A stretch of DNA of 64,000 nucleotides. Source: Prorocentrum cordatum (taxonomy: Eukaryota; Sar; Dinophyceae; Prorocentrales; Prorocentraceae). This document shows, in pieces, positions 3,740 to 49,684 of the stretch. Position 1 is the first letter of the stretch. Every line of letters begins with the position of its first letter. The stretch spans positions 67,001-131,000 of the forward strand of contig CAUYUJ010013892.1 of assembly GCA_963575745.1 (NCBI GenBank), read 5' to 3'. A model generated the notes under the pieces. That model was not told where the DNA came from. It saw only the letters and a program-made list of their open reading frames with translations, and ran no database searches. Both the position numbers and the translations under genes were made by a program.

Positions 3740-4442
3740 AACGATGTGGTGCAAAGCATGTGGTGCAATACCAGTGGTTCTAGCTATGTGGTGCAACCCC
3801 GGTTGTGAAACATGAGTGGTGCAATCTAAGTGGTGCACCATACGTGGTAAAGCCATGTGGTCTACGCTGCGTCGCGCACAAAGGCGTTAAGATAAGCTGT
3901 GATGTGCAACAAAAGCTGTGTTGTGCTGTATCTCACGATATGCGGTGCAATACCTGTGACGTAAGCGATGTGCTGTGGTCTAGGTGGTGCAATTGATGTG
4001 GTACCAGACAGGTTGTGCAGTCTATGTCGTGCCATCTACGTATGTGGTGCGTGGTACGTGGTGCACTCTATGTGGCGCATACTAGGTAGTGTGATGTGTA
4101 TCAAGATATCAAAATGGTGCACAATAGAGGGTGTAGACTATGTGCTGCAGCATCTGTGGTGCAATCGATGTCGTTCAAATCATGTGGTGCAAACTATGCG
4201 GTGCAAGCTTGGTTGTGCAAAAGATCAGTGGAAGCTCCATGTGGTACGATCGGTAGTGCAAAGTTTGTGGTGCAAACTATGTGGCGCAATCAGAATGGTG
4301 CAATCTGTGTGGTGCCATACATGCTGCGCAACCTATATGGTGCACGCTACGCGTGCGGCGTGTGTTGCGTGATGCGAACTATGTGGTGCATACAATGTCG
4401 TGCGACCGATGCTCAGAGTCTACGTGGTGCTATACATATGTG

Positions 4443-13424: not shown

Positions 13425-13429
13425 TAAGA
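13425..13429. repeat. Target-site duplication TAAGA (left)
   Basis: TAAGA immediately precedes the LTR and matches TAAGA at 32562-32566. Five bp is the usual duplication size for Ty1/copia integrases. Confidence 0.9.
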
Positions 13430-13604
13430 TGTGTGAGGGTGAGGAGGACCAATGGACCGACCCCACCCCCGAGTGTCCGTCGGTAGACGATGAGGGACGA
13501 TGGTTTTACCCAACGTACCTCCAAGTATCGAGTACCTGTCATCCGAGCCAAGAGGGGCGATGGATATGAGCAAGATAGGAGGAAAGTAGGGGGATTCACA
13601 CACA
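13430..13604 (-). repeat. 3' LTR of the copia element
   Basis: 175 bp, TGTGTG...CACACA termini, no difference seen from the 5' LTR at 32387-32561. No canonical TATA box is visible, which is not unusual for dinoflagellates. Confidence 0.95.
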
Positions 13605-13620
13605 CCCCCCGTCCCGATCC
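13605..13620 (-). promoter_or_regulatory. Candidate polypurine tract
   Basis: In the sense direction GGATCGGGACGGGGGG directly abuts the 3' LTR, the position where plus-strand DNA synthesis is primed in LTR elements. Two pyrimidines interrupt the tract; the terminal G run is the likely core. Confidence 0.55.
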
Positions 13621-13670
13621 CGCCCGATGCCAACGCACAAAAGCGAAAGGCACCGAAGCGGGGATCGGGA
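13612..13670. repeat. 10-bp inverted repeat next to the polypurine tract
   Basis: TCCCGATCCC at 13612-13621 pairs perfectly with GGGATCGGGA at 13661-13670, leaving a 39-nt loop. It lies in the untranslated tail directly upstream of the 3' LTR in the sense RNA and could be a 3' structural signal. Confidence 0.5.
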
Positions 13671-14360
13671 TAGGAGAGTGAATCTCTACTGAACTCCTGT
13701 CTGCAATCCACTGCTTCGGCCCAGGAAGGAAAGGAAGGGACAGCCAAAGCTCTGTCGTAAGGTTCGTACCCAACGGCGGCGCTAACCTGCAAAAAGTTTT
13801 ACAGCGCCAGCCGCCGAGATAGAACCCAGGACAGTGCTGTGGGCTGGAGAGAAGTGGAATGGAGAGACTGAACTCTTATGACACCGACCCAAACGGTCGG
13901 TGCCCGAAGCAACACATGATAATCATGAATATGAAGTCTTCAATCCAATACCAAATCAAAGTAATCAAATCAGTCACGGTACGAGGGTGGTGAAAATCTT
14001 TTTATGCAAGTTCCATATCCAATCTGTACCAGATGCAATATGTACGTCTTGCCACAGTTCAAATCTAAAGGATATTTATGCAATTGTGCATTATGCGATT
14101 TTTTTTTTTGAATCTATATGAGTAGTATTATCCCATCATGAGGATAGCTGTCACCATAAACTTTCTCACAGTTGTTGAGTCCATGAAGAGGAAGAATCCT
14201 TGAAGTGATATACTGATCAAAAGGTAAGTGCGAGCGTCCTCGAATACTACATGTCATCGAAGAAAATGATATAATGCATCAATAGGCACATCAACAATAC
14301 GACAAAGTTGGAAGCCATTCAAAATCTTATGGGCGGCATGGCAACCAGTTTCCTGGTGCG
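13621..14360 (-). other. 3' untranslated region of the copia element
   Basis: About 740 nt between the TGA stop at 14361 and the polypurine tract. It is more AT-rich than the host DNA and has no open frame with recognisable content. Confidence 0.7.
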
Positions 14361-17300
14361 TCAGCGTGGAGGGTCCAAGCGCCATGATCTGCCCGTATAT
14401 ATCCCCGATGTGTACTTCTTATTCCATGCAGTCGCGCCCCATCCATTATTGGCGAACGGATCCCACGCTTTGATCCAGATGAACTCGCCCCAATGGTCGT
14501 ACCACTGGCGGTCATGCGGTGCAATTTGCCTGTCATAATAGTGGGCACCGTATTCAGCACTGTACCCGTGGGTCACATTCGAAATGGCGGGGCGCTTTGC
14601 CAGAGGTGGTCCATCATCGGGACGCGCAGGCGCATATCTGGCAGCGGAGGCGGTATGGCCATGGCTGTCGAACGCGCCGGAAGAAGTACGATACTCGGAT
14701 GTGTATGGTGGTGGCTGGGGGGTTGGATCGGTCCCGCTCCCCCTAAAGTCACCCCCACTACTGCTTCCTGGAGCGTTGCCGCTGCGGTTTCCCGCTGCAC
14801 TGGCGGTCTCCTGAAGCTGAGAGTAGTATTCTTCGCGCTCTCGCTTAACACCGGATCGGATCTCGTCCCGGGACCCAGTCAAAGACTGTGGGTGTGCACG
14901 AATTTCTGCGGCGGTGATGGCACCGCGGAGAGATTCGCCCGGGACGTGAACGGTAAGGTGGTTGCGCTGAAAACGTTCACGAAGTGTTTCGGCTCCAAGG
15001 TTCGGCGCTCCGACCTCTTTCCTCTTTTTGGAGGCCTGCCAGAGGCGATCGGCCTCAGTGGCAACTTCTAACGTCCATGCAACCCTACCAGCCTGAGTCC
15101 GAACTGTTGTCATCTGCTCACGAAACTCATCATCCTCCGCAAAGCGCTGTGCTAGAGACATGTATGGATGATACATGGGAGGATAATTTGGATTCTCAGG
15201 CGGGATGCCGTCCGCGTCGGCGTCTGCACGTAGCTTGTCGCACTCCTCCCGAGATGGAGAATTCCAAGCGAGCCACTTCTGATGCCGTTTGTCAGCTTTC
15301 TTCCCCATGTTTTGAAGCTCGTCTTTAGCGTCTGTCTGTGGCTTCTTCGAGCCACGCGTATCAATGGGGGCAGCTGTGATGCGCTGGGCGACGTCATCCG
15401 GCTGAGTGGCGGCAAACGCAACGAACTGTTCTCGCCAGGCCGCAACCTCGTCCGGCCATTTGGAGTTCTCGTACCTCATGCAAAAGGCACATTTCAGAGT
15501 GGCCCCAGGCGTGTCCAAATCAGCTGGCATCCGAGCGTTGCAAATTGCGCAAGACGGGATGCGAGTCTGTAGCTCTGGAGGTGCCAGTCCTGTGCTCTCG
15601 TCGAACTGAACGACCCCTGCGAGCAGGGTCGCGAAATTCTCCTGAGATACGCTCCCACCTGGCGCAGAGACGATTTGGCGGGCCCGCTCGAGGTGATCAG
15701 GTTCAAGTGGGGCAAAGATCTTCTCGTCGTCTTCGTCCAAGATCTTGTCAAGGTCGCTGCGGTTTCCCGCTGCACCCTGAGGCTCGGCGGAGGCGGAAGC
15801 AGCGACAGCCTGGTATGCATCTTGGAGAACTTGAGTGGCGAGTGTGCGTTGTGATAACTGTGAACCAACGACAGATTCAATAACGGTTTTGGTAGCCTCC
15901 ACATTGTCTTGCGATGCTAGGGTTTCCCCTTGCTTCGTAGCCGATGTGGAAATCTTTCCGTCGTGGGGCGCCTCATTCACGAACTCATCCTCCACATAGG
16001 TCTCTGTGCCCATGCGGAGTGCAGCAAGGCCAGGATGATTCTGCACAACCTCGGCGTTCTCAATGTCGATGAGTGCAAATTTGTCGCCAGCCTGCTGGTA
16101 GAGGTTCAAGTATGCCATGGCGCACCATGAACGTCTGCCGTATGCCAGGGTTCTGTATCGGAAAGTACCAATGCACTGAAAAAGGTACTTTGTGAAAGCT
16201 CTGTGTCCACATTGGTCTGGGAAACGGTGACACCATGGTGCATCGCAGTTGAACTCGAAGGTCATTGTTGTATTTGCGATATCGTCCATGTTCAAGACAA
16301 CGGTGTACTCCATGGTCTGCTTCACTTTGGTGTTAACGACACCGTGATGCCCAGATCTACGGACAATGTGGACTTTCTTGACTGCTTTGAAATAGTCTGG
16401 TAGGTCGGATTGATCTGGTCCATATGTGAGAGTTTTCTCCGCGTTATCCTCCATTGTTTCGATTTCATTGCGGATATCATTTAGCTCTGGGGACCAGTCA
16501 TCCTTCTTGAGGAAGTCATCATCAGCATGTTCTGGAACATGTGGCACAGTGTCACCATTGCTGCGATTTCCCGCTGCGCCGTCATCATAACTATCCTCTG
16601 GAAAATCCGTTGGTACAGGGATTTCGGTCGGCGAGCTCTGGTCCTGTGTGGGGACCGGCATCTCTGTAGGTGAACTGTGATCGTCTGCCGCCAGAGGGTG
16701 ATCCTCCGCTGCCGGCGGAGGATAGTCGGGCGAGTGTGGAGTGATAGTCGGCGACGGAGGGTCAACTGCCATTGGTGTCGGTTCTGGTACGACTGTCGGC
16801 GATGACTGGGCCGGAGGTACATCGTCAGTGGGCACGTCCAAAGACTGAGGGCTCCTGATCAATTTAAGCAATTCACCTGGCTCAGCTTCACGAGCATCTA
16901 TGTCGGCGACCTCCTCAACCTCTGGGGGCTGTTGACTGGGGGCGCTGCGGTGTCCCGCTGCACTAGAGGCGTCTGTATGCCTCTGGCGCAGTGGAGCACG
17001 AAGATCTCCCACAGCCCTGACGTCACTGGTCGGCGTCATGATCGCATGACGGGGTGGAAAGTTAACTGGGGGACCGAAGCGAAGGTCATCTGGGAGTGAG
17101 TTGGCGTCAAAGTCTGGGCAAGGTACAACGCGGGCAAGCGTGTTGCCCGCCAGCATGCCCTTCGTGCCATCCCAAACGTTCATCCAGTGATCTCCGATTT
17201 TCACGGTCACGTATCCCATGAACTGGCCTACCTCGCGAATGGGTCCGAATAGGGATCCCATTGGTTCGCCTTCATGAGGGCTAACGCGCTCGCCAACCCA

Positions 17301-20300
17301 GGAACCATCTGAGTGTTTCGATGGCGGGTGAGAGTAAAAGTAGCAAGCTTGTCTTGTTTGAACGTAGTCTCCAATCCGATAGGTCTCGTGGGGACCCATG
17401 GGCGGCCAGGCTGACGTGATGTGGCTAACGCGGCCCTCAGTGGCAGCCTGTAGAAACCATTGGTCGTAACGCTCGTGAATCTGACGATTACGCTCGCGCT
17501 CCTGGTCTGTTGTCAACTGCGAAGCTGCGGTTTCCCGCTGCATAACAGTTGGTATAGAGACGTCAGGGGCGGATGTGTCGCCAGACTCGTCACGATGTGC
17601 TCGGATCGGAGGTGCCACAGGGCGGATGTTAACCAACCCGACGGCCTTTCTAGCCGCTGTTAAGGCATTGATTGCATCAGCGAGTCTACTCTGTGTCCTC
17701 AGCAGCGCGGCCTCGGACTTAGCAAGGGCGGCTTCCCTCTCGGTGGCCTTCTGGGCAGCAGCCGCGGCCGCGTTGTGTGGGTCTAACGTGAGGCCCTCAA
17801 CTCCCTCGGAGACTTCTTCCACGGCTGTATCTCTCGGCGCGGCGGTCTCCCGCTGCTCTGCTGCGATCTCTCGCTGCACGTGCGGGGGGGCCGAAGCGAT
17901 GGGAGTGTGTGCCGGTGGAGGTCCTGGGGGGAGCGGCGGAACAGGCGGCGAAGCCTTGGCAATACCTTGTCCAGGTACAGCTCCCACTGGTGGCGGCGCA
18001 TGCCGTGGTGGCGGTGGTGGAACCCTGTTGTCGCCCACGACCTGGCCAGGATACACGTTGGGAGCGATCGGCGGCGGTAACTCTCCTGGAGGAGGTCTGC
18101 CGACGCCTTCTGGTGGCGGGGCCTTCCTCTGGGGTGTCTTGGGAGCACGTTGCCCAGGCTGGCCTGGCTGGAGTGCAGTCGGAGGCGGAGGCGGAGGCGG
18201 TGGGGGCTTCTTTGGCACATCGTTGCCTCGAGCCAGGGGTCTGGGCTTGTGCACAGTCGGAGCAGACGGCTTAGGTGGGGTTGGAGGTGCAGCTGCGGTT
18301 ACCCGCTGCGCATCGCCCCACGGGTTATTGCTATGGCCATACACTTGCCATGGCCACGAAACTGTGGAGCGCTCATACTTGGACCGTGGCTCAGAATCAC
18401 GAGGAGGTCTGGCCAGGTCGTCGTCGTCTGGGCGCCCCCAGATTATTTTGCCGGTAGCGATGTTCCTGCAACGAATAAGACAATGTACTGGGATGTCGCG
18501 TTCTGCCATTATCGCGCCCTGTTTACCCTTCCACCAAGTGATGCCAGCCGTAGCGCATTTCTGATGGTCAATCTGAAATTCACACTGTTTCTTAGCGGAA
18601 TGAAAGACGTACGGCGGTATGGTGGTGTAGGGGTTCTGGCCGCAAGAGTGAGAGAAAGGATGAGCGGAGGCAAAGACCTCGGCACGGGTTGCCCCATGCT
18701 TGTGGTCTCGCTTGTCGAATCCTTTGATTATGCCTGGGTTAGACCTTGGTGAGCCTTCGGTAATGCTCCGCACTGAAGACAGCTCGGTTGCGTGCCAGAG
18801 ATATGGAGTGTCATGAACAGACAACTCCTCCCAACCCATGTTGTGGGCTGTGGAATATGGGTGCACCTCGGACTGACCACCTGTGCTTCGTATGGCCAAG
18901 ATGCGGCCGAACGGAAACGTAAGTGGATTGAGGTCAGAGCCGACGGGTGCAAACACTTCTGTGCGCGACTTTCCATCTGCATGGTATTGCAGCATACGAA
19001 TGGCCATGTAACAATAGTAATCGGCCAAGTCGATGTAGTCACCATTGTCACGCTCAGTTTCCCAACACGCTAGGACGGCCTCGTTCGTGGGTGTCTTGCG
19101 GTATTCCCATTTCTCCTTCTTTTTGTGGTAGTATTCTTGCTGGCTGCGCTGCCAGCAATTCATCGCACACTCTCGAAAGGTGGATGTCTTGGAAAAATCG
19201 ATGTTCAGACGCCGATCGTGATATGCGTTGGTCACTCCACTTGTGTGACGGAGTATCGTCATGAGAAACTTGCTAAACTCCCAGCGTCCGAAGTCGCATC
19301 CATCAGGAAGAGGTGGGCCGTATGGGCAATCTCGCCATGGGGGCAAGGCGATCCACTCATATGCTCCCTCGAACCAGCGGCTGCCGACGAGATCGTCGGC
19401 GTATTTGAGCACGTGAATGTCCTGTTCATTGGTCAGGCGCCGCGGGTCGTTCTCGGGGACATTGTCCGGGATTGTTCTGCGAAGCAGTGGATCGACATCA
19501 AAAATGACAATGGCATTTGGATGATCGGGATCAATCAATGCTAACTCTCGTGGGGTCTTCCATCTGTCCATGTCATCTGTACGCTTCTTGACCCCGGAGA
19601 AGTAGCATGCCCGCTGTGGTGTCAAAACTTCGTACTTGGACGATGTCTCTTCGGCTACGGTTTCCCGTTGCAAGACCGTGTCATCGTCCTCGGACTCAGC
19701 GGTCGTCATCGGGTGGTTGTCCATCCACTGCTGGGCCTCCGGGTTGAGAGCCATTTCTTCCGCCAATCGGAGGTGCCGGGCATCGCCTTTACCGTTCTTC
19801 ATAAGGTCAGGGTCGAGCAGGTAAAGGCCGGCGTAAATGGCGGCACACAGTCGTGCGTGTCTCTCGCGCCAGGAGGTCTCGGATGTGCATTCCATGTAGC
19901 CAGTGATCCAAGAGTTACGGTCTGGTCCAAGCGATTTATTACGAGTGTCCTGGAGAAGGCCTCGGTATAATTTGGACATCTGAGAAACATGATCGGCCAT
20001 GACATAATCGTCCTGAGTCATCACTAATGCATATGTCGGGTCAGCCGTCGTGTCCTCTGTGACTGGCAAGAAGGTAATGTCACCTTCTTGGTTCAGAACG
20101 GCGCGCATCCCAAGGTCCTCACGCTGCTGAATAGATTCTGCGTTGGAAGCAAAGGCCGTGGTTGCGCGCGTGGATGTCTCGTCTTCGTTTTTCATACCAG
20201 ATCGCTTAAGATGTGCTGTGATCATTTTGGCGATCTCGGGAGCGACGGTAGGCGGGGCGGCGGCTGTAGCAACGGTTTCCCGTTGCACAGCTGCGGTGTC

Positions 20301-23300
20301 CCGCTGCTTGGTCCAATTGCAGAGGTTATGAGCGGCACGCATGCACATCAACTCATTGGTCTTCGCACGATCAACGTTTGATGCTGAAACGTGATCGTAT
20401 AGACTCTGGATGTGTACTTGACGATGGTGCCACGCGATCAGCAACATGTGGGACAAACTATGAGATTGTGGCTCATTAAGCGGCTTCACTGCGGGCTGTT
20501 TGAAAGCGTAGAACTGACTTGGCTTAGAGTTCATTACGCCGTAAAGGTTCTTGAGTGTTGCAAAGGTGACCCATTGCGCAGCGAAGCGAGCCCAATTCGC
20601 ACCTGTCTTCTGGCAGTGCCATCCATCATCCTTGGTGCGATCCATAGCTTGTGTCCATGCCGAGTTGTTGATCACGGAAATACCACGTGTCTGCATAAGG
20701 ATGCACATATCTTTCGAGATGGTGTCGAAGTGGTGAGGTAAGCCCCAATCTTTGGCCGTGCCAGGGCCAATGACGTGAGGATGTTTATACCAGTTCGCAA
20801 CGTCGCAAAATCTATCAAGGCCGATAGTGATATGCGGCATCATCTCGAGCAGGCATCCTTCTTGTGCTTCCCACTTGCGTTGGTACGCACGGTGGTCCCG
20901 TCTCTCCCAACCCAGGTCCACTCTTTGGGCATCGACGCTTTTCTGATTGTAGTCTGGGAACGTGATGTCATTGTTGTTCCACCAGAAAGTGGCAGTGGCA
21001 CCACGCTCATACCACAATTGTTTGTAATGAGCATCAAGGTCGGCCCAAGTGTCCCATAGGGCTTCATCCATGTCGAAGTAGCGTTTTCTTTGAGCGGTGT
21101 CCATATTCTGGGCGCGCATCTCTCTGAGCGTGGCGATTCTTTCGAGGATATCACGATGGAGACTCCAGAGTGAAGAATCAATACCATCAATGGTGGTGCC
21201 TTTTTCAGCGTTGGTGATGATGATTCGTTTCCTCTCCGATGCGCGCTGGTCCAGGCGCTGAAGCTCTGGGACAAGGCTCAGGTCTTTGTAGTCTTCATCG
21301 GACGAACCCTCGGGGCGCTGAGGAAGATCCGTGCCTGGCTGCACGACGTGATCATCCCAGAATCCTGGAATGTAGGAGTAGAACCAGTCCAGGATACAGT
21401 CCCGAGCCGCGGAAGCTAGAGTAGCGAGAGTGGCTCCTCCCATGTACTCTTGATGCACTGGGGTTGGGACGAGTAGCGTTGAGAAGGGTTGTCCAACTTG
21501 GCGAATACAATCATAACTGCACAGCATGTTGATGGCCTCTTCAGGCGTATGGTAATTCTTGCTGGCTTTTCCCATCATAGTTCCCGAGTCGGTGAAGATG
21601 TAGAAGAATGGGGTGGCAGTGCCTGTAGGTCCAAGGGCATGGTTAATGGATAATCCAAGATCCTCTGTGGCGATCTGCATCCAGCCATTCTCATCCGCGA
21701 AGCATTTGAGCACGGAAGCGTTGGTCCACGTGTGATGCTTAGCGTGATCGAAGTCAATGAAATCGTTAGTACTGTCACCGCGGGATGTAGAGTCGGCACA
21801 AACCAACAAAGGGTCGGAAGCCAACAAAGGAAAAATCTGTTGGTTGTGTGATGGGCATCCGAAGATGTTTCGCCTTTGGTGTCCCGGGGCCCAACCACTA
21901 GTACGAACGGGACTCTCGTTCGCCTCAAGATCCTCACGCCAGGGGTCATCACCGCTGCGGTTTCCCGCTGCGTACCGATGGCTACCTGTGTCGGTGAGGC
22001 TAGCGATGGCAATGGGGCGAGACAAGTGGCCCCCAGATCCGCACGGCGGGTCCAAACGACAACTGCCCCCTCCTATGTACTGGACATGGTGTTTAGGCGA
22101 AGCCGTTCTCATGTCACTGTTGAGGTCTCGAGCGGGGATGTCGATGAACGAGTTGTAGCTGTTTTCCACGAACGAGCCAACCGAACCTGCGCAGTCGCTC
22201 TTGTGTGGAAGAGCTTTTCCGTGTGTCAATCCAGAAGAGGGCCGCTGGACACCAAAATTATGTCCGTGGTTGGGCGTGTCAAGGCTGTCTAGACCTAATG
22301 GGCGATGCTCCTTTTTGTACATGTTATATGTGTCGTCAAGAGAAGAGCTCACCCATCCACCAATGGCGGTGGATCCAACTGTAGGCCATGCACCTTGGAG
22401 TCCTTTCCACAAGGACGTGGCGGCGTGTGAGAGGCACTCAAGAGATGGCATCAACGGTGGCTCGCTGCGGTCTCCCGCTGCTATGCTGCGGTCTCCCGCT
22501 GCACGGCCGAGAGCCTCGGTGCGAAGCCAGTTGAAGTGTTGAACGATGCTCTCCAATTGGTCACTCATATCCTGGTCGAGGCAAGCCTTGGCTACATACG
22601 AATGCAGAACAGCAAAGAATGAAACCCAAGGGAGTGTCGTCTCCTGCAAAAAATTTTGCATCGAAATCTCAACATCCATCTCGACGGCGTTACGAAGGTC
22701 TTTGCGTGAGCATTCAAGGAAGCAAACGCCAGAGCCCTCTGGTGCCTGAGTAAAAGCTATCGGGAACTTATTAGGGCCTGCCCACGGTAGCTGAATATCG
22801 AACGCAGCTCCAACAGTGGGTCGAATGATTGGTCCGTCTGGAGGAAGAGTGCAGGCTGGGCGCTGGATCATCGGAAAGGCACGATTGAAACGTAGTGTCC
22901 CTACCGTGATGTCAACCATGTCAACGTCCTGGTCATCGCCGCCCTCTAGCGGGGGTTGCGCTCCGCGTGGAGCGATAGGGTTACCCCCTGAGCTCGATGC
23001 GGTGCCCCGCTGCATGCTGCTGGGGGGGGAACGAGACCGATCCTGCAACTGTGTGTTTGAGCCGCCTACCGCGCCGGGGCCGGGCGGGGCGGCCGGAGTT
23101 TCCTCCGCTTGGGAAGAAACGCTGCGGTTATGCATAACATCTCGTATGACAAGAGTGCGTAATGGTGAAGAAGAGGATGGATCAGGGGAAAACGATGTCG
23201 AAAAACGGTGACCTGTATCAACCTTACGCCTAGTTCGGGTCGGGCTCTTAGCCCGGGTCGGTCCCGGGTCTATCTTGGCCCGGGTCGGACTCTTCTGAGG

Positions 23301-26300
23301 AGACTTGCGGCGTTGTCGCGGGGACTTGGTCCGTGCCGAACGCGAAGCGTTGGACCCGGCTGTGATGCTGTGATGATGTCCACATGAGTGTAAACCCTCG
23401 TGATTAGGGCAACCAACACATCTCTTACCACATGCTGATCCAACGTCGCCCCAGGGGTCCTTGGAAGTGAGAGCAACTTCACAGAAGCCCGAACATCCTG
23501 GAGGTTTTGGGGGGTCGGCGGAGTGCGGTAGACCGTTGGGTGTAGTCCCCTCGTCCTCCGTCATAATATGTTGACGCATGCCCTTATTCAATGATGGCGA
23601 AGGACGAATGAGCGCAAGCTCGAGAAGTGTTTCCCAAACATTACTCTTTTTGGAGTCGAAATGTTTTGTCATCATGTCCGCAACTTGTTCCTTAGTACCT
23701 ACGTGTGACAAATGTATTTGTTCATGTTGACAGACTTCCACGATCCAATCCAGGTTGATTCTATGCGTGCGATGGAGGTGCCGCAATGCGGCCGTCCTAC
23801 CTTTCTTTACTATTTTGATAACAGCCTCATTGTCCTCGGCTATGATAAGCTGTACCTGCGGAGGGCTCTTATCAGAATGAACTTTGCGATGGTCATGTAG
23901 AGGATGTTCGCCGAATGTTGTTAGGGTGGATCGAGGAGAGTCGTAAGTGCCAGGGGCTGGGGTTTCCCCCTGCTTCTTATACGTTGGTGGCTTACGCTGT
24001 TTGCGAGAGGCGGCGGCAACTTTGTCGCGGGCCTTGTGCGTGCGTACAACGTGTTCCCAAAAGGTAAGCAGGGGGAGGCCTTCAACCCGGAGCGCCGTGT
24101 CCAACGCGACGATTTCGGATTCCGTAGAGGAATGCGAAACCACGGTTTGTTTCTTACACACGGCGTTGATCGGGAAGAAAGTGTTGGGGCCCACAATGGC
24201 GGCAAAGATGCCTGTCGTGGACTTCGACGTAGAAACGCAATCTGCATAGGAAGCGTCTGTAAACAGTATAATGGAAAGTTTATCGGCGGAATCGCCGATG
24301 AAACCCTGCAAGCTATGCGTCTTGGTGTGCTTGATGTAGCATACAAGACGATGCAGACGTTTGTCGCAAGCTCGATTCCATTTGGTAATCTCGCGTGCCA
24401 ACATGCAGACTGGGTGTAATAAATCAAAGCGACAGCATCTTGCAAGATATAAAATTTTCATTAGAATGCTAGCCGACTCTGGGCCGAGGACGCCTTTGTC
24501 GTCAAAATCAGCTTCTGTGAAGGCGGAGTCCTCGATCCCAGGGGTTTCGGAGACGGGTAGGTCTCGGAACTTCATTTTCGGATTGTCTGGAATGGTAGCA
24601 GCAACCTCAAGGTAGCGATCGATACATTGATCAATATACCCGCTCATATTATATCGAACGCCACGGACATCTTTGGCAGTTTTGTAGGCTGCGGTGTCCC
24701 GCTGCGCTTGAGGCAGTAAAGGACGAATGGTCTCCATACGTTTGTTGAACTCGATGTCTGATACTGTATATGGAGCCTGTCCGCAACCGAGATATTGATC
24801 AAGTTTGGTGGGCGGATCGATCTTGATGCCACTGTCCCGGATGAGGTTCCATCCAGCTTCTAGGTTGTCTTTTGGGCCGGCCAGCTTGAAGTCGTCGACG
24901 TATACAGAAAGCACCAATCCAAGTTTAGGGTGGGTCCAAATGCATTCCCATCCTTGCATAGGAACGAATCCTTTGCTCTCAAGGCATGTCTTGCAGTGTC
25001 TCTCCCAAAAGACGCCAGCAAGAGGATGACCATAGAGAGCCAAACGGAGTCGGCACACTGGGTCTTTGTATTTAGCCCATGATGCTGGTCGACGTGCCGG
25101 TGGGAGGCTGATCCATGTATCGACTGGGTCAATTCTGCCATCACCGTACAACAGCGCCTGCGTGTATGCTGATGGTGCATCACTCTGGCCACCATTGTAA
25201 CCGGGCATGTGTGCGACAGCATCAACGAGCTTTGACGCCTCAATATGTGATGCGCTGGATGCGGCATCAGCGAAAACCGCTGCCAGGCCTGTTTGATCTT
25301 TCATAGTATTTCCCTGGCAGACAACGCGACCTTTGTATTTGCGCTGTTCAGGTGGGAGTTCGGAATGCTTCACAGTTCCGAGTTCGAGTAAATGCGCAAA
25401 ATGAATGTCCTTGCCCTCCTTAATGGCCTGCGCTTTGACATCGGCGCGTTCAGCGACGGTGTCTTCCATCCATGTGGTCTGTGCGCGAAGGCGATCATAT
25501 TCTCCACGGAGAGCGGCCTGAGCGCGTGGTTCTGCTGCTATTTGCTTTTTATTGAGGCTCTGGGTTACCAGTGCATATGAGGTAGTGTCATGACGCTCAC
25601 GATGTGGCTGATCAGGCGTGTCTTTGGGAAGGACGGCCATGATAGGAGCATCAACAAAACCAGAAACCTTTCTCTGCCGGACAAACTGCGCGAAGGTCGG
25701 TTTCAGCGTGAGACAAAGTGGATTCAAAGCACCGAATGATGTACCATCGTGCTCAATGTTTGTCGGTGATGCGATCGCCACTGCAGCTCTAGCCGGCGAT
25801 GATGACGATGCACTGGTTTCCCGGTGCTCATTATCGGGTAAATAATACAGCACCGTAGTAATGTCTCGGGGACCACCAGGGACAGGGGCGTACAAAATAG
25901 TTTTGTCTGTGACGCCCTTGACTTGTTCATCTCGGATCGTGTCTCCGGTGTGCGTGTCAAGAGTGATTCGACGCTCGACACGGTCCCATTTCGGTCCATC
26001 CGAGCGTGTTGCTCTAAGTGTTTTGGCGTTGTTATCCTGACGAGACCAGGTCTTCAGAGTTGCCTCATGTCGGCGAGCACGAGCTTCGGAAACCAGCTTA
26101 CCGAATGCACGTTCGCGATCGCGCTGGCGACCAGAAAGACACTTCCAGTACTCCACGAGACAGTGATCGGGCCTAGTAGTTTTCTGTATTTTGGTATCAC
26201 GTCCCATTGATTTAATTTTGCCATCGGAAGTGTATTCTGGAGCATAGTAAAATCGCACGGTGCCTGTCCAGGGTTCTCCCAGGGCTCGATGATCGCTCTC

Positions 26301-29300
26301 ACTGACTCCATCCCATGTGTCTCTGAACTTGTCCTGTCCCTGGAATGTCGATGTAGTTTCAAATTCACGAATTACATCGAACTTTTCCAATGGTACCGGT
26401 AGCCCTTCTGGGGCGTCCGTAGGGATAAACAACTGCAAACGTGGGGTACATATGTGACGAAGAATCGTAGCATCACGTACTTCCCAATAGTCTGGAGTTG
26501 CCGCAGGGGCGGTTGGTAATTCTGCCTCTGCGACGGCTGAGGTTTCCCCCTGCATCGGCGCATGAGCAGGGTCGTCCCAGTCCACAGGGTAGTTGCTGAG
26601 TCGTGGGGCATCGTTGCGCATGGGGTCCAAGCAGTCGCCGAGAGGTATTTTGGCCTCATCTGCAATGGACTCGTGCATGGGCGGGTTATGATGAGTAAGA
26701 ACGCCGTCAGCGACTGGGAACTCAAGTTTAGCTGGTACGACGATATCTTTGACACGATGAACGTGACAATGGGTGCTGTCTGGGTATTTGGCATATGTGG
26801 CGGTGTCGACGACTAGGTAATCTCCAGACCATCGTCCGCCAGCATGCATATGATAACCCATGAACAATCCCTCGCGTGTCGTCTTCGTGAATTTCTTGCC
26901 ATCACTATCTGTGTTGAGTTCCGGGTACAGGCATTTCCAATATACTTTGGAGCCAAAGGGTACTGTACGTCCATTGAATGACTCTCCGAAGCGAATCTCA
27001 TATGGCGTAAGTTCCGCCTTATTTGGATCGGAAGATGCGGTACCGGTAGTAGACAGAGAGAAGTTGGTGGCATTACAGAAACATTGCATAGCCTCGCACC
27101 ACCATTCATGTCCCAGACCAGAAGCCATAAGGACAGCCTTTGTGCCTTTGACCACGCGCTGCACAGCACGCTCTACAGTCCCGTTAGTCTGAGGTCGGTG
27201 TGGCGTGCTGGTATCATGGCGCCAGCCAAGTGTGGCACATGCTTTGATGAGTTCTTTGGAATTGTCGGTATAAATATGTTTAACCTCATCATTGGGGGCG
27301 ACAAATTTCGTCAGACTAAGTTTGGTGGTTTCGGCATCCTTGTGCAATGCTGGATAGGCCATCATGGTGCCCGTGTGCTTGTCTAGGACAACAAGAGCAC
27401 ACCTTTCCTTCAGCCTGCCAGTGGCCTCATCATCTCCAATAATGATATGATCTGCTGTCAAGGAATCTCCAAATTTCTTCGGTACGAACGCCTCATAAGT
27501 AGAATCATCTTCGTTTTTCTCGAGATCTGAACGTATCTTATGTTTTCTTTTGCAAGGCTTGTTGCGAATCAAAGCTCGAGCGCATATCTCACAATCTGGG
27601 TGTTTGGGAGAATGAGTCAAGTAATGACTGGGGTCAATGCTCGGTCTCTCGACGACAGGGAGAGCGCACTCAGGGCCCTGCTGCGGGTCACCGCTGCACG
27701 AGGGTTTATTTAGAACCTCGAGGGTGTAACACCAGCATGGGCCTTTAGTGGGGGTCTCCTCTGCGGGGTCGATGGGAAAGGTCTGAAAGCGACCACGACC
27801 ACAGTCCCTGTGAGACATGCTTTTCCACTGTGGCAGGATCACTCCGCAGCATGATGTCCTGACGCGTCGGCGTGGGCATTCCTTCGTGTGTCGCCTCGCG
27901 GAATACAAGGGGGTCGGTGGAGGTGGCGGAGCATCATGCATGTGGTCGATATTGATCTGTGGAATAAAGTTATGTACCACAGCCTGTTTAGGCTGGCCAT
28001 GTGGGGGTGTTAGTACGCATCCAATTCTTCTGTTCCAATGTATATCCCAATCATCTTCCTCGACAAGACGACCCATGGACCAAACGGACGGGCAATTATC
28101 CATGACCAGGGTGTCTTTCTCGATGCCGAGTGCTGGGATTTTGACACGTACATGTTGGTTGACGATTCTCTCGCCATTGGCGGTTTCCAAAATGTGTTCT
28201 CGTCCAATGCGAATGCCCTTTTTCTCGGATTCTGTCATGTCGGCTTTATCTGAAATGTGTAATGCCGAACCGCTATCAAGGACGAAAGAACGCGATATTG
28301 CTACCGTGTCCTTTGTTGGAGGGGCGCTGGCTGCAGTTTCCTGCCGCGACGAAGCTGCAGTTTCCTGCTGCTCTGGTGCTGCAGTTGCCTGCTGCGCCGT
28401 GGCATATGTGTGGAGCAGCACGTCCTCCTGTGGAATTGCGACGTAGCAATAATCGAAGTGGATGTCCTCGTCGTCGTCCAGCCTCCGTATGAGGGCGAAT
28501 GCATTCTCCTGGGCGCGTGTCAGATGAGCCTGAGAACGGATCCACCACCAATCGGGTATTGGATCTGGAACGTGGACAGCACCGCCTTTGTTTGGTGACT
28601 CCCGATACGGTCTCATCTTACGTCGAACCGTGAAAAAGTCGATATCGGTAGCAGCAAGGTTCCAGCGAACCTTTAGTTTTGGTGTCGATGTCGTCGCAGG
28701 CGGTTTGGTCTTGAGAATCTGGGCCTTTGAGATACCATGTGTAGGTGAAACTGCGAGGATCTTCTCGCGTATCACGTACACTCGGTTGGTGTTCCGAGCG
28801 GGAGAGCGCTGTCGTTGACTGGACTGCGATGTCCGACTGGAACGGGAGCCAGATCGTGAATCTCTATGAGACCATCTTGTACCGCCTGGACTACGTGATC
28901 GGCCTTGCCGCTGAGACGAACGAGACGGCGATCGCGAGTCCTTCTGGGACCAGCGAGTGCCACCTGGGCTCTTGGAGGGCTGTCGAGTGTTCGTTGAGAA
29001 ACGACGGTTGCCCCCCGGACTCCTGGAGTAAGCCCTGCCCCCCGGACTCCTGGTGAAAGATCGTGATCTCTGCGACCAGCGTCTACCACCTGGGCTTCGG
29101 GAGGGGAACCTCTGTTCGCTTCTGGGCCTGCTGGGGCTGCGAGGCGGCGTCTTGAAGCCATTTTTATAGTGGGCAAATTTGCAGGTATCCCCGTTGGTGC
29201 AATTGCCCTTCTGATAGAAGACGCAAGGATGCACGTGGTGCCGGTTGCAACCAGTGCGCTGACACATATTACCCTTTGCAAAATCGTAGCAAAAATACCT

Positions 29301-32300
29301 GGCAGCTGGAGGCCTCGAAGTAGCCGCGCCAGAGGCGCTGCCTCGAGCGTCTCTACGATGTTGAGATGATTGGCGATTCCTGGGAGGATCACGAGACGAC
29401 GGGTGGCGTCTGGGCGGCGGTTTCTTTTCAGCAGTGTGCAAAAACTTACATGTCTCTGGACGGGGACACCCTTTGCCCTTGAAGAAAGGGACGCAATGTG
29501 AGTTGCGGCTTGATTGTTTGGTCTTAGTCTTGGCAGGGGCAACGGTGTCCCGCGATTCTTTTTGCATGCTGTATTGATTCTTCTGTAGCTTGTGTAGATC
29601 AAGAACGTCGTAAACTCTTTGATGGAGCCAGTTGTATGTCTTGATCTCCTCTCCGTTCTCATCTTTGGCTCCAGCCCTGGCTTTGTTGTATTTGCTCATG
29701 TCTTCTTTCATCCAAGGATGTCTCTGAACCTGAGTACGAAAGAGGGATTCCATGATGTACATCTCGGGTAGTTTGTTAAGAGCCAATAGTAATCGATCCC
29801 ATTCGACGATGAAACGCTGGAGATCGTCTCCGTGCATGCGTAGATTCTTAATGCGATCAAAGTCGTGAAGGTGATCCTCGGCAACGGTGACGTCAAATGA
29901 ACGGATAATCTTCTGATATACCTGACGTCCTTTAAGCATGCGCTTGGCTTTGTGTTCAACGTCCTCTAACAGCTTCATTTGCAATCTTAACTCATGTGGG
30001 AGGATCTCGAGAAGAGCGTCAGCTAACTTACAGTCGAGGCTCTCGAAGTCGCCGCTGTCGGCGAGATCCTCAAAAGTCATCTCAGGGTTCTCCGCTACCA
30101 TGATGAAGGCGTACGCCTGAGCTGGGCGTCCAGAGGCGTTTCTGAAACCCTTGCGGACTCCGTTCATCCAATCGGCGACTCCTGTGATCTTAGGGAAGCC
30201 TGGGACCCGAACACGGTCACTTTCTTTGACTGTGGCAGGAAGTAGTGACCCGCCAGCATTATACGGGGATTGCGCAACGTTGGAGCCGAGTGTACCTATA
30301 TTAATGGGAGAGTGTGTTCGAAAGCTAGCATTGTCTGCAGCTGTCTCAGGGGCAGAAGGCTGGGCTGCGGTTCCCCGCTGCTCGTCAGCACCAGTTCCTG
30401 CCTGAGGAAGTGTCGGCTTGGAAGCGGCCCCAGTAGAACCCCCCGCATCGCGAGCAGCGGCGTCAGGGGAGGGGCGGCGATAGCCGGTATCAGGTGTATG
30501 TTTGGCTGCGTCCGCGATGTGATCTTGTATTGTTTGCTCAAGCGTGGTGTTGTCTGCTTGCAGTTTTGCGACACAATCAGACAATACTTCCCATTCAGCG
30601 TGTTGATGTTTCTGAGTGTCTGTGAGGAATCGAACGTCATCCTTATTGTGGGTAGTAAGATTGACAATTAGAGTACGCAGGTCAACATTCTCGTTAGCAA
30701 GACGAGCCATCTCAGCGTTCATTTGATCCAGGCGCGCATTCGCGCGTGCTGACTCGGCATCCCTCTCGGCCACAGAATCCTGCAGCTGCCTTTGCAAGTG
30801 GGCCACCTCCGCTCGGACGGTCTGTAGAACAGCTGCCGTCACGTCGGGGTTGGTCACCGTAGCAGTGGGACTCACCTGCGCAGTATGAGCCCGTGCGACC
30901 TGCAGCTCAGCTACGGTCTGCTCGAGAGTGTGGACTCTGGATAGAAGCTGTGGTACATGTTGAACCTGACAGGAAGAGAGTTGAGCTTGGAAAGCGTTCT
31001 CGGCCTCACATAACTTGCCATACAAATCTTGCTGAACGGAGCGTGTATAATCGTGCAGCTCACGTGCTGCAGCTTCCGTTTCACCACGGATCGTGGCAAT
31101 ATGACCTTGTAGTGCGGTGGAAGGCGCTCCGAAGGCACCTGAAGCTGTGCCCGCGACTTCTCGCAGCTCTTCGCGAAGAATGCGTGCACGTTCATCGTTG
31201 TGTTGACGAATCTGAATGACGCTAGCTTCAAGTCGATCGAAGTCGGACTTGACGGCCACAAGTTCGTTAGTCTCGCGATCTCGTTGTGTATCGAGACGCT
31301 GCATCAGCTGTTGCATGATCCGACGGTCCTCTTGGACGGCAGCGTCCAGGATCGAAAGACCCTGTTGGAGGTCACTCCGGAGGACGGCGGTATCAGAGGC
31401 CACAGCCTTGTGGACGAGGCTAGTTTGATATTCAACGTATGTGTGCACGTGATCTCGTAGCTCAGCCATGTCTTGCATTGGCAGAGCCTCCCTATGTCGG
31501 TTTGCGGCTGGGGAACTATGGGGCCTAATACGAACCCCCCGGACAGATGGACTCCTACTGCCGCGATCGTCTCGAATAATGTACTGTTCGGGGCCACGCC
31601 TGGGAGCTTGGCTCTTAGAATGAGCACGGCGACTAGGGCCATGGTCAGAAGTACGGTTTTCGAATTCACGGACTCGCTCATAAACCTGTCCCTGTTCAAT
31701 CCCTGTTTGTTCGGGCGTCCCATGGCCCCACCTTCGTGTGCCTGTGCCTCTCTCTCTCGGAGGGGAGGAAGGTGTAGGCATGTGTGGAGCTGCGGTATCC
31801 CGCTGCACTGTCTGGGACGGTGCTGCGGTGGCCCGCTGCGCTGTTTGTGGCGGGGCTGCGGTTTCCCGCCGCGCTGACTGGTGCAGTGCTGCGGGAGGGA
31901 CGTCAGATGTGGTATGAAGGGTGGGGAATTGAGGCGTGAGCCCTGGAGCGGCGTGTAAGAATCGCTGCTGTAGGGGGGTCTGATCTCCAATAGGAAGTGG
32001 GGGTGCGGAAACGCTATGAGCATGCAAGGCACGAAGCTGTTGCAACTCAGCTTGCATAGCGTGGAGCTGAAGTGCCGCCTGGGTGGGCAACGCTGGCATT
32101 GCTGCGGTTTCCCGCTGCATTGACTGCGCTGCACTGGGTGGGGGCATAGCTTCGTCCAATCCGTCGGTTCCTGGAGAGATGGCCATGCGGGCCGCGAAAT
32201 TGGGAGAAGCTCCTAGAATATCGGACATATCAGCATCCAAGTTGCGCACGACTGACGGCGACGACTCATCATGCGGGAGGACGGACGACTGGTGTCGTGC

Positions 32301-32306: not shown

Positions 32307-32370
32307 CTCGCATAACTAGTCCGATGTCGTCAGGTCGGGGCGCAGGTTGGACGCGATGTCGGATATAAAA
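32307..32370 (-). other. 5' leader of the copia transcript
   Basis: Short untranslated leader between the primer-binding region and the ATG at 32306. Contains TTTTATATCC in the sense direction; no upstream ATG precedes the ORF start. Confidence 0.6.
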
Positions 32371-32386
32371 GAGAAGGCTGATAACC
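32371..32386 (-). promoter_or_regulatory. Candidate primer-binding site (half-tRNA type)
   Basis: The sense sequence just inside the 5' LTR is GGTTATCAGCCTTCTC. It lacks the TGG expected if a tRNA CCA end were the primer. Its complement reads GGCUGAUAACC at the 3' end, which resembles an anticodon arm with loop CUGAUAA (anticodon GAU). Drosophila copia is known to be primed by a 5' half of initiator tRNA-Met cut in the anticodon region. The same mode is inferred here, with a different tRNA. Confidence 0.45.
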
Positions 32387-32561
32387 TGTGTGAGGGTGAG
32401 GAGGACCAATGGACCGACCCCACCCCCGAGTGTCCGTCGGTAGACGATGAGGGACGATGGTTTTACCCAACGTACCTCCAAGTATCGAGTACCTGTCATC
32501 CGAGCCAAGAGGGGCGATGGATATGAGCAAGATAGGAGGAAAGTAGGGGGATTCACACACA
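32387..32561 (-). repeat. 5' LTR of the copia element
   Basis: 175 bp, no difference seen from the 3' LTR at 13430-13604. Confidence 0.95.
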
Positions 32562-32566
32562 TAAGA
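32562..32566. repeat. Target-site duplication TAAGA (right)
   Basis: Matches 13425-13429. Confidence 0.9.
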
Positions 32567-47581: not shown

Positions 47582-49684
47582 TCAGCCTCCGCCAACCCTC
47601 ATTCGTCTCATCCCCCTCCTTGCCCATGCGTCCTTGTCGCACTTCTGCAGCAAGCGGTCCAACTCTTTCGTGTCGACCTTGCCGAGGGAGCCCTGGAAGT
47701 GCGTCAAGATGTCCGCGCCCACGGCCTTCTCATTGAAGCTCGCGTACCAGAGAGCCTCAGCGCCCGCCCCCCCCGCCTTGGCTTTCAGCAACTTCGCGGT
47801 CTCAACCACATGGGCCACTGCGGCGTCGCACTTGAGAACGGCAAACTCAGACAAGGCACCGCAGCAGCCGGGCATCAACGGTTCGAAACGTGCAACCAGT
47901 TGGTCCATGATCTGGTTGCTGGTGGGCATGTCCGCAAAAACGGGTTTCTGGCTGATGACGGCGGAGAGCTTCTTGTACGCGGTCAGCATAGCGCTCGAGA
48001 TCTCTGGGCCTTTCCCACTCAAGTCTTTCATAACATCAGGCTTCGAGCTGTACTCAATGCAGACGGCAGTAGAGAGTGCAATTTTGCCACACTCGGCCAA
48101 CGCCTCGCTCTGCGTCTTGCGGGTCTCCCAGTAGGTCTTCATAGCGGTGTCTGTGACGGTCAGCAGCTTGAGCACGTCTGAGACTTCCTTCGCCTGCGCC
48201 CAGGGGACCTCAGCGACAGACAACCAATTGAGAGCCCGCCAAGCTGCATCGACCATCTTGTCCTGGATGGCCTCCTCCTTGTTCTTGCTCGCCTGGCCCT
48301 TCACTGCGTCGTACAAGCTCTTGAAGTCGCTGTACTGCTTGATATCCTGCGAGATCGAGGATGCGAGCATCTCCTCGGCAGACCTGTGCACCCATGCTTC
48401 ATGCATCTCCTTGATCCTCATCTGGATGGGCTTCGTGTCGTTCGTGGTGGTCAAGCACTCTGAAGCCTTCAACACAACCTGAATCCACGCCCTGTTCTCT
48501 TCGCTGAACTGAATCTGGTCCCAAGACCCCTGACTCGAAGCGTTATCCAACACAGACAACACGTGCCGTTGCAAAGATGCTGTCGCGTTCTCACGGAGGG
48601 CGTTGGAGGTCCAGCTCGGGGCCCCTTGGATCCACTGCTGCAGGAAGGGGATGAGATCCATCTTCTTCTTCTCGAAATCGATGTGGAGATCAGTCTGGGC
48701 TGACAACTCAACCATCTGCTTGCAACACTCGAGAAGCTGAAGCCCCATTGTCGCCTCAGCACCGACGACCCTCTTGTACTCATCCAGGCGGTGCTTCCAG
48801 AAGCCTTCCTTGGAGCGGAGTCGGATCTTGAGGAGCTTCGCAGTGCGGACTGAATTGCATATAACATCGAAAGACACCGCGGCAACACCCTCTTGCTCGG
48901 CAGGCTTCCGGGTCGATGGGGGGGCCAGGAAGTCGACGTCTTCGAGCTCGGACTGGAAAACAAAAGGAAACGAACAGGTGAGCGCTGCCACGCCCCGGAT
49001 CGCCCGCAGGAAAGGATTCAGCAATTGCGTGAACGACTCATCTAAGAGCACATTATTGTCTTCCCGGATGTAGAACTCATGGAACGTCTGGGCGAGCTCG
49101 AAGAAGTCGCAAGGCATTTCGGATGTCAGAGTATTGTGGTCCTCAAGCTCGCTCATCAAAGACAGGAACCCATCGTTGAATAATGTGCCCCACCAATACT
49201 CCATTTGCGATTCATCGTCCTGGAGATGCGCCACCAAGGCAGACCACATCGGGTTGGCATAATCCCAATCAGAAGCTGGTTTGGGCGGGGGGACTGTCCA
49301 ACACCCAGAGACATCATCGAACACAGTGATCGCTCGGGGCCACATGCACTTGACCCACGCTTCGAAGTTCCGCTCCATCAACTGGGCATGGCCCCACAAC
49401 TTGTGAAACGGCATGGCGTTCTTTGGGGGCAACACATGGCCTTCCTCATGGAGGATCTCCAAATCAGGGATGACATCAGCAATCGGGTTGAACTTGACCA
49501 TCGACTCGACCATGCAATTTGTGGCTGAGATGCAGACCTTAATCTCATGCTCAATGGTCTCAGCATCTGTCTTGCGGTTGGCTGCCTTCAGTTTCTTCAT
49601 GCGCTCTCTCGCCTGAGCAGGTGACACTTGTCGGCGCTTGCCCTCTGCCCTGCTTGGCCCAAGTGATTCTACAATCAAACCCAA
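47582..49684 (-). CDS. Large exon of a conserved helical protein of unknown function (copy 1, 700 codons)
   Basis: The only long host-type frame in the window with natural composition. It is predominantly helical, with conserved-looking Trp/Phe patches (MEYWWGTLFNDGF, FWKHRLDEYKRV, PFLQQWIQGAP, AWRALNWLSVAEVPWAQAKE). No catalytic motif, signal peptide or membrane segment seen. The exact ends are doubtful. A good acceptor (TTTGATTGTAG/AATC) at about 49669 suggests the exon starts just inside the frame. A donor-like CAAG/GA near 47613 suggests it ends before the Arg/Gly-rich tail. An internal 39-nt in-frame segment at 48953-48991 resembles a retained intron. The second copy differs at five of 700 residues. 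Function unknown. Confidence 0.6.
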   Translation of the reverse strand: MGLIVESLGPSRAEGKRRQVSPAQARERMKKLKAANRKTDAETIEHEIKVCISATNCMVESMVKFNPIADVIPDLEILHEEGHVLPPKNAMPFHKLWGHAQLMERNFEAWVKCMWPRAITVFDDVSGCWTVPPPKPASDWDYANPMWSALVAHLQDDESQMEYWWGTLFNDGFLSLMSELEDHNTLTSEMPCDFFELAQTFHEFYIREDNNVLLDESFTQLLNPFLRAIRGVAALTCSFPFVFQSELEDVDFLAPPSTRKPAEQEGVAAVSFDVICNSVRTAKLLKIRLRSKEGFWKHRLDEYKRVVGAEATMGLQLLECCKQMVELSAQTDLHIDFEKKKMDLIPFLQQWIQGAPSWTSNALRENATASLQRHVLSVLDNASSQGSWDQIQFSEENRAWIQVVLKASECLTTTNDTKPIQMRIKEMHEAWVHRSAEEMLASSISQDIKQYSDFKSLYDAVKGQASKNKEEAIQDKMVDAAWRALNWLSVAEVPWAQAKEVSDVLKLLTVTDTAMKTYWETRKTQSEALAECGKIALSTAVCIEYSSKPDVMKDLSGKGPEISSAMLTAYKKLSAVISQKPVFADMPTSNQIMDQLVARFEPLMPGCCGALSEFAVLKCDAAVAHVVETAKLLKAKAGGAGAEALWYASFNEKAVGADILTHFQGSLGKVDTKELDRLLQKCDKDAWARRGMRRMRVGGG

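Follow-up and report, generated by a model that had tools for sequence, protein, structure and literature searches.

A dispersed family of GNNA-loop hairpins along the giant open reading frame of a Ty1/copia retrotransposon in Prorocentrum cordatum

Multiple packaging signals dispersed along a genome are known from MS2, with satellite tobacco necrosis virus (STNV) and parechovirus as further cases, and palindromic elements inserted in reading frames are known from Rickettsia and, as GC clusters, from yeast mitochondria. The packaging signals of small RNA viruses are described as many stem-loops of varied sequence that obey one rule for the loop and share an irregularity in the stem; for MS2, these are a (x)xYA loop and an A in a 5' bulge (PMC6281560). 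Here we analyse a 64,000-nucleotide (nt) stretch of the genome of the dinoflagellate Prorocentrum cordatum (the window: contig CAUYUJ010013892.1, positions 67,001 to 131,000). It holds, on its minus strand (13425-32566), a complete long terminal repeat (LTR) retrotransposon of the Ty1/copia type, and a family of 18-nt hairpins is spread along the single giant open reading frame (ORF) of this element.

Judged by sequence, these hairpins resemble viral packaging signals in being multiple predicted structured sites along a genomic RNA with a common recognition feature. They differ in that the units are near-identical and only 18 nt long, combine a 1x1 mismatch with a GNNA loop, belong to a protist LTR retrotransposon, are shared with non-LTR-like elements and have a reader that is only a candidate. 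Like the Rickettsia and yeast elements they are short palindromes within ORFs, but they measure 18 nt only, are sense-only as seen, are constrained in their fold and reside in retroelements (25 of 27 listed contigs, see below). What they share with the structures described at the 3' end of long and short interspersed nuclear elements (LINEs and SINEs; PMC6510757) is a stem-loop in retroelement RNA; here the stem-loops are spread through the ORF rather than placed at the 3' end, and they occur in LTR elements. In the titles and opening lines of the open-licence PMC papers that were listed we found no description of dispersed hairpins in dinoflagellate retroelements.

The hairpin unit and its copies

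An earlier note on the window had proposed a GNRA-tetraloop hairpin family dispersed through a giant retrotransposon ORF. The proposal is supported in a refined form: the unit is made of 2 base pairs (bp), a 1x1 mismatch, 4 bp and a loop that is mostly GNNA, with a GNRA majority. The 29 clear copies that had been counted were all found again, on the sense (minus) strand and inside the ORF at 14361-32306. The loop counts were likewise reproduced (31 rows minus those at 18682 and 29539): GAAA in 15, GAGA in 4, GCAA, GTAA and GGAA in 1 each, i.e. 22 GNRA loops out of 29, the remainder being GACA (3), GCCA (1), GATA (1), GGCA (1) and TGAC (1), so that 28 fit GNNA and the copy at 27680 (TGAC) is the exception. 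The plain 7-bp stem of the note did not stand, since positions 3 and 16 of the unit are unpaired in 21 of the 24 distinct rows. As to the weaker copies it had listed, the one at 29539..29556 (ATCGCGG GACA CCGTTGC) is partial and weak, with 5 of 7 pairs, and the one at 23092..23109 is a weak member with a 5-bp GAAA hairpin (CGGAG GAAA CTCCG); at 17824, no hairpin exists in that register. The statement that no copy lies elsewhere is true for the window; the genome does hold further copies.

The commonest unit, GCAGCGG GAAA CCGCAGC (-8.5 kcal/mol as folded RNA, z -3.65), occurs on the minus strand, as do all copies, at 32101..32118, 21954..21971, 17524..17541, 15756..15773 and 14781..14798. The same two stem arms enclose GCCA at 31822..31839, GATA at 31789..31806, GGAA at 30364..30381, GTAA at 18292..18309, GACA at 24688..24705, 20290..20307 and 16944..16961, and GAGA at 22485..22502 and 22464..22481. 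At 27680..27697 they enclose TGAC, the reverse complement of a GNNA loop, in a unit that is identical in the related element L016. Single-base variants are GCGGCGG GAAA CCGCAGC (31855..31872), GCAGCGG GGCA CCGCATC (22996..23013, unchanged in L016), GCAGCGG GAGA CCGCCGC (17839..17856) and GCAGCGG GAAA TCGCAGC (16560..16577). In other copies a whole pair is exchanged. Pair 6/13 is A-T in GCAGCAG GCAA CTGCAGC (28378..28395), GCAGCAG GAAA CTGCAGC (28354..28371) and GCGGCAG GAAA CTGCAGC (28330..28347), and pair 7/12 is A-T in GCAGCGA GAGA TCGCAGC (17860..17877). Pair 5/14 is G-C in GCAGGGG GAAA CCCCAGC (23956..23973), where QGETPA replaces QRETAA in the protein, and G.U in GCAGGGG GAAA CCTCAGC (26536..26553), which has G-C in L016. 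Pair 4/15 is A-T in GCAACGG GAAA CCGTAGC (19654..19671) and, together with a G-C pair at 5/14, in GCAAGGG GAAA CCCTAGC (15916..15933). GCAACGG GAAA CCGTTGC (20269..20286) forms 7 bp, GCACCGG GAAA CCAGTGC lies at 25810..25827, and GCATGGG GCAA CCCGTGC (18682..18699), with 7 of 7 pairs, is a possible member that may be due to chance.

The strict pattern ((.((((GNNA)))).)) has 27 sense matches in the ORF and 2 antisense ones, against a mean of 1.28 and a maximum of 3 in 60 synonymous-codon shuffles; other classes of first and last loop bases give at most 3 strict matches each. Outside the element there are 3 matches in 44.9 kb of the window, both strands taken, versus 1.41 per kb on the sense strand of the element. 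Twenty of the 27 matches are read in a QRETAA-like phase and seven in an AAGNRS-like one (phase 0 for the copies at 22485, 22464, 21954, 16944, 16560, 15756 and 14781), and the copy at 27680 reads SGDPQ in the third; because the hairpins occupy three codon phases, the unit is a nucleic acid one and not a peptide. Information content is 0.6-2 bits inside the 18 positions and at most 0.72 bits (at -2), mostly below 0.4, in the flanks; the 29 rows used, including one at 20560 that is probably due to chance, were required to pair, with GC ends, and to have a GNNA loop, so that the columns concerned are fixed by this choice. Even spacing of the hairpins is not claimed, the p values being mixed (0.003, 0.025 and 0.11 for three sets of hairpins in the window element, 0.02 in family C, see below). 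No Rfam family matched the window above its gathering score, and the 11-nt tetraloop receptor CCTAAG-N3-20-TATGG, the only receptor type searched, had 0 matches there.

Pairing and constraint across copia families

The genome searched, a single one throughout, amounts to 4.13 Gb in 21,875 contigs. Besides the family of the window element (family A), it contains elements of the same kind that fall into three further groups: A' (L016, 91% nucleotide identity), B (about 44% amino acid (aa) identity) and C (contig C489; 48% identity across aa 674-3025 and 23-32% in the C-terminal half), the latter with the same giant-ORF plan. Family C gave 12 strict sense matches, two of them chance-like, and 1 antisense match, against 1.07 in shuffles. 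Its units, e.g. GTCGGTG GCCA CACCAAC, GTCGGTA GCAA TACCAAC, GTCGGTC GCCA GACCTAC and GCTGGTG GAAA CACCTGC, leave 3/16 unpaired in 11 of the 12. They have other stem sequences and an identical fold; the fold is thus common where the sequence is not.

Among the 31 units of the window element (24 distinct rows), covariation was 0.304 versus 0.114 ± 0.020 in shuffles, a value reached by 0 of 500, and 0.026-0.082 in slid controls; both sides had changed in four of the seven pairs, as in 10 of 500 shuffles. Since such counts are biased when the rows were themselves found through their pairing, pairs not used for selection were tested separately. Sites with a threonine (Thr) codon were chosen by their loop and by the five remaining pairs, and the wobble base of that codon (position 13) was compared with position 6: the two were Watson-Crick partners in 19 of 19 sites in family A, 6 of 6 in C and 3 of 3 in B (one copy), i.e. 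28 of 28. With sites treated as independent, the log10 probability under codon usage is -10.0 for A, -3.2 for C and -1.6 for B. In family C, 12 sites were picked by their peptide, V[AEGD].P; in six of them every other pair forms and the loop is GNNA, and the valine wobble base (G, A or C) of each of these six pairs with the second base of the next-but-one codon. Valine codons are evenly used. A seventh paired site, at 4362, has a GATT loop.

The comparison of A with A' bears on 13 sites, i.e. every unit seen in either sequence across their common part. Stem positions changed in 4 of 156 cases versus 635 of 6816 for the background (Fisher p 1.8e-3), and third-codon stem positions in 1 of 52 versus 455 of 2272 (20%) elsewhere (p 2.7e-4). 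Changes affected 0 of 26 first and last loop bases, 3 of 26 free loop bases and 2 of 26 mismatch bases. Without the site at 22949, the figures become 2 of 144 for stems and 0 of 48 for third positions (p 2e-4 and 5.3e-5). For a subset of ten sites they are 2 of 120 and 0 of 40, the third positions of the 60-nt flanks having changed in 81 of 352 cases. An empty site, i.e. a gap, was looked for at the 13 sites and none was found in either element. As shown by these sequence comparisons, it is the fold that selection maintains, and not the peptide or the exact sequence. The earlier note would have been contradicted by related elements devoid of both hairpins and structural constraint; we found that the related families keep the hairpins and that the stems are constrained.

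Genome-wide counts, taken on both strands with the reversed pattern as control, agree with this picture. GCAGCGG-GNNA-CCGCAGC with its A.A mismatch has 842 matches (control 19), and the same pattern with the mismatch closed by A-T has 5 (control 13). Change of pair 5/14 on both sides gives 134 matches (control 10), and change on one side gives 6 (control 14) and 7 (control 7); the forms with 5/14 unpaired and the form with its mismatch closed are at background level. A broader hairpin form in IUPAC code has 2,039 matches (control 349) and the family-C unit 399 (control 0).

The host element and other carriers

The element is bounded by two LTRs of 175 nt on the minus strand, the 3' one (TGTGTGTG...CACACA) at 13430..13604 and the 5' one at 32387..32561, and by a 5-bp target-site duplication, TCTTA, at 13425..13429 on the 3' side and 32562-32566 on the 5' side. 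Its ORF (14361..32306, minus strand) is uninterrupted over 5,981 codons and encodes Gag, Pol and more in the Ty1/copia order. The integrase core (rve; 27192..27404, aa ~1635-1705, E 1.1e-4, 22.8 bits for a cutoff of 32.6) precedes the reverse transcriptase (RT; RVT_2; 24786..25349, aa ~2320-2507, E 1.3e-6, 28.6 bits for a cutoff of 31.6) in one polyprotein, which, with the LTRs and the target duplication, makes this a Ty1/copia element, both domains being under their Pfam cutoffs. It has the integrase-RT order, the LTRs and the 5-bp duplication of other Ty1/copia retrotransposons; it differs from them by its single ORF of about 18 kb, an extension of about 3,000 aa, the dispersed hairpins and the zinc fingers of Gag. 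A copia Gag would usually have a CCHC knuckle. Here there is a CCCH finger (29169..29225, minus strand; PF00642, 21.4 bits for a cutoff of 20.5; PF18345, 28.6 for a cutoff of 29), and two further ones upstream of it were spotted by eye in the translation (29169-29400 region). CCCH fingers are also found in the Gag of L037 (family C).

A search of the genome with the RT region gave at least 45 full-length matches of 97-100% identity, window included, when 70 of 5,487 candidates were scored; 11 of these 45 are surrounded by open frames of 5,983-5,984 codons. Family A is present in multiple, nearly identical copies. Single open frames around copia RTs reach 7,081 codons in C489 and 7,478 in C18942. 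The RT part had 194 relatives in a protein search, most of the 120 listed having PF07727; the whole ORF, the pol region and the C-terminal half had no relative in the same kind of search, and scans of viral contigs yielded no relative. Four metagenome copia relatives (P0004, P0005, P0010 and P0006) have repeated AGGD or GDPR peptides, which might be the hairpin alphabet of another lineage. In family C, an RNA 2'-phosphotransferase (Tpt1/KptA)-like domain was seen in the C-terminal extension of L036 (C489; aa 1087-1237 of the 1,666-aa piece L036:5003-10000:-; PF01885, E 3.6e-5, 24.3 bits, below the cutoff of 26); the corresponding stretch of the window ORF gave no Pfam match.

The hairpins are not confined to copia elements. 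Twenty loci were fetched around listed hairpin matches, family-A copies and C6302 being left out, and all 20 look like retroelements: 11 are copia elements of family B, one is A' and eight are non-LTR-like. The first 100 exact-core places listed fall on 27 contigs. The 25 of them that were examined, all except C4614 and C5207, proved to be retroelements, either from the DNA fetched or from an RT match (for C814 and C2892 the call comes solely from reading of the ORF). Pfam supports the class of L015 (RVT_1, RNase_H), which L020, L022, L023 and L029 match at 97-99.9%, and of L017 (RVT_1); L014 and L019 were called non-LTR-like from endonuclease- or RT-like motifs as read, with no Pfam RT match. 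Three of them carry pieces of copia sequence: 72 nt of 22453-22524 in L015 (71/72), with the hairpins at 22485 and 22464; 40 nt of 16931-16970 in L017 (39/40), with that at 16944; and 56 nt of 20263-20318 in L014 (91%), with those at 20290 and 20269. Each piece has sharp ends and unrelated sequence on either side. L019 has only about 20 nt in common with copia. Two of the five differences between L014 and copia exchange G-C and A-T at pair 6/13, a compensated change in the hairpin matching the 20269 copy, and one lies in the loop. The L015 piece agrees better with A (71/72) than with A' (93%), which suggests copia as the probable source. As the LINE-like loci were found by a hairpin search, they do not prove that hairpins are a preferred cargo. 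In L023 (4859-5140), the copia-shared piece is flanked on each side by a copy of a 99-nt LINE stretch, which occurs once in the sister copy L015.

A few other features were noted. Arrays of the hairpin pattern with a period of about 60 or 120 nt occur at C414:350870-351250, C15:380747-381064, C492:503997-504193, C982:55200-55337 and C1258:91392-92009; they are possibly part of a repeat protein gene or of another element. In the window itself, 39641-64000 appears to contain a large tandem duplication, with near-matches about 13.5 kb apart (40107/53594, 44303/57790 and 49359/62863) and two 700-aa ORFs (47582-49684 and 61086-63188).

What may read the hairpins

We tentatively favour the explanation that the hairpins are a repeated cis-acting RNA structure read by a protein, with Gag as the first candidate, and that they serve as dispersed signals for packaging or for assembly of a ribonucleoprotein (RNP). 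The genomic RNA would display many hairpins along its length, for the most part where the polyprotein seems to have flexible linkers; a protein would read the tetraloop together with the mismatch, and the numerous copies would allow the 18-kb RNA to be recognised and condensed. Proteins with CCCH fingers are able to bind hairpins that contain a mismatch, and the reader might be the element's own Gag, whose CCCH fingers would act when the RNP or particle is assembled. The hairpins found in non-LTR-like elements might then be captured tags which admit other retroelement RNAs to the same particle or RNP. Several points count against this explanation. That Gag is the reader is something we infer, and the non-LTR-like carriers are expected to make no capsid, which suits a host factor or a mobile module equally well or better. 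The sites behind the 6-13 probabilities are only partly independent, and copies in one element or family have common ancestry, so that the genome counts are not independent events. At one site of 13 (22949), A' has a complete hairpin and that of A is broken. Polymorphism in family B is powerless (stems 1/60 columns versus 104/4581 in ten near-identical copies, L031 excluded; 13/60 versus 321/4581 if L031, which has an unrelated tail, is included), its single stem change being G.U to A-U in L018. Among distant copia relatives (120 listed of the 194), there is no QRETAA array and 1 chance-like peptide match; two 3-kb GTDB contigs, probably mis-binned, have no array either (2 sense and 1 antisense matches in L039, none in L040).

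The reader could also be a host RNA-binding factor, instead of Gag, that acts in export, translation, localisation or escape from silencing and is exploited by several unrelated retroelements. Identical hairpins in copia families A, A' and B and in non-LTR-like elements, as well as the 25 retroelements among the 27 listed contigs, speak for such a factor; yet there are few copies in the non-LTR elements, with 1-3 in each one fetched, and in three of four non-LTR families they lie on short pieces shared with copia, so that capture may explain their presence. We regard this as possible but on the unlikely side. Another view, somewhat more doubtful to us, is that of a transferable RNA identity tag: an 18-nt code with lineage-specific stem alphabets, defined by its fold (the 1x1 mismatch and the GNNA loop) rather than its sequence. 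Giant copia RNAs would repeat it throughout their coding sequence so as to be recognised and assembled, and unrelated LINE-like elements would have acquired it as 40-72-nt cassettes, which would let them enter the same machinery. The hairpin could also be a mobile module, i.e. a short structured RNA spread by template switching of reverse transcriptase and by duplication within elements, and largely selfish or neutral. The lack of strong conservation outside the 18 nt, the tandem copies 21-33 nt apart and the shared pieces of 40, 56 and 72 nt flanked by unrelated sequence would all follow. Compensatory changes and inverted loops are described as products of template switching (PMC8794818); the inverted loop at 27680 is what template switching predicts, and it may have made that TGAC loop. 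However, synonymous sites in the stems hardly changed between A and A', and the mismatch is retained where stem-homogenising template switching should have repaired or closed it. Moreover, the units are sense-only, with antisense strict matches at background (2 in A, 1 in C and 1 in L017), and none of the 13 compared sites is empty, though one is broken in A; the central place of the hairpin in the shared pieces is partly a matter of ascertainment. We consider the module, taken as a whole, unlikely.

Far less probable is an origin as exonic footprints of introner-like introns, bearing terminal inverted repeats and removed from the element's RNA by splicing ahead of reverse transcription. The P. 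cordatum genome paper (PMC10666404) describes introner elements that have inverted repeats, and footprints would be sense-only, palindromic and phase-free; but constraint after formation and the retained mismatch would be left unexplained, and each hairpin is 18 nt of coding sequence, not an intron, within an ORF that has no interruption. The hairpin might, lastly, be a by-product of selection for a repeated peptide (QRETAA or xxETPA, e.g. a protease or docking site), in accordance with the 20 of 27 strict matches in the QRETAA phase. As a sole cause this is refuted, since 7 of 27 are in the other phase and that at 27680 in a third, pairing persists at synonymous positions, and copies with other pairs also have other residues (QGETPA at 23956); a minor role of the peptide is possible, and we give this explanation very little credit.

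To conclude, RNA signals made up of many sites in viral coding sequence are difficult to prove, given the degeneracy of each site. The hairpin sites described here are explicit, numerous and recurrent in families with little common sequence, and natural variants provide single- and double-mutant tests of them. Should they be assembly signals, a cellular retrotransposon would offer an unusually clear example of such a code; this would suggest how the 18-kb RNA of a retroelement is handled, and would show that LTR and non-LTR elements share RNA signals.

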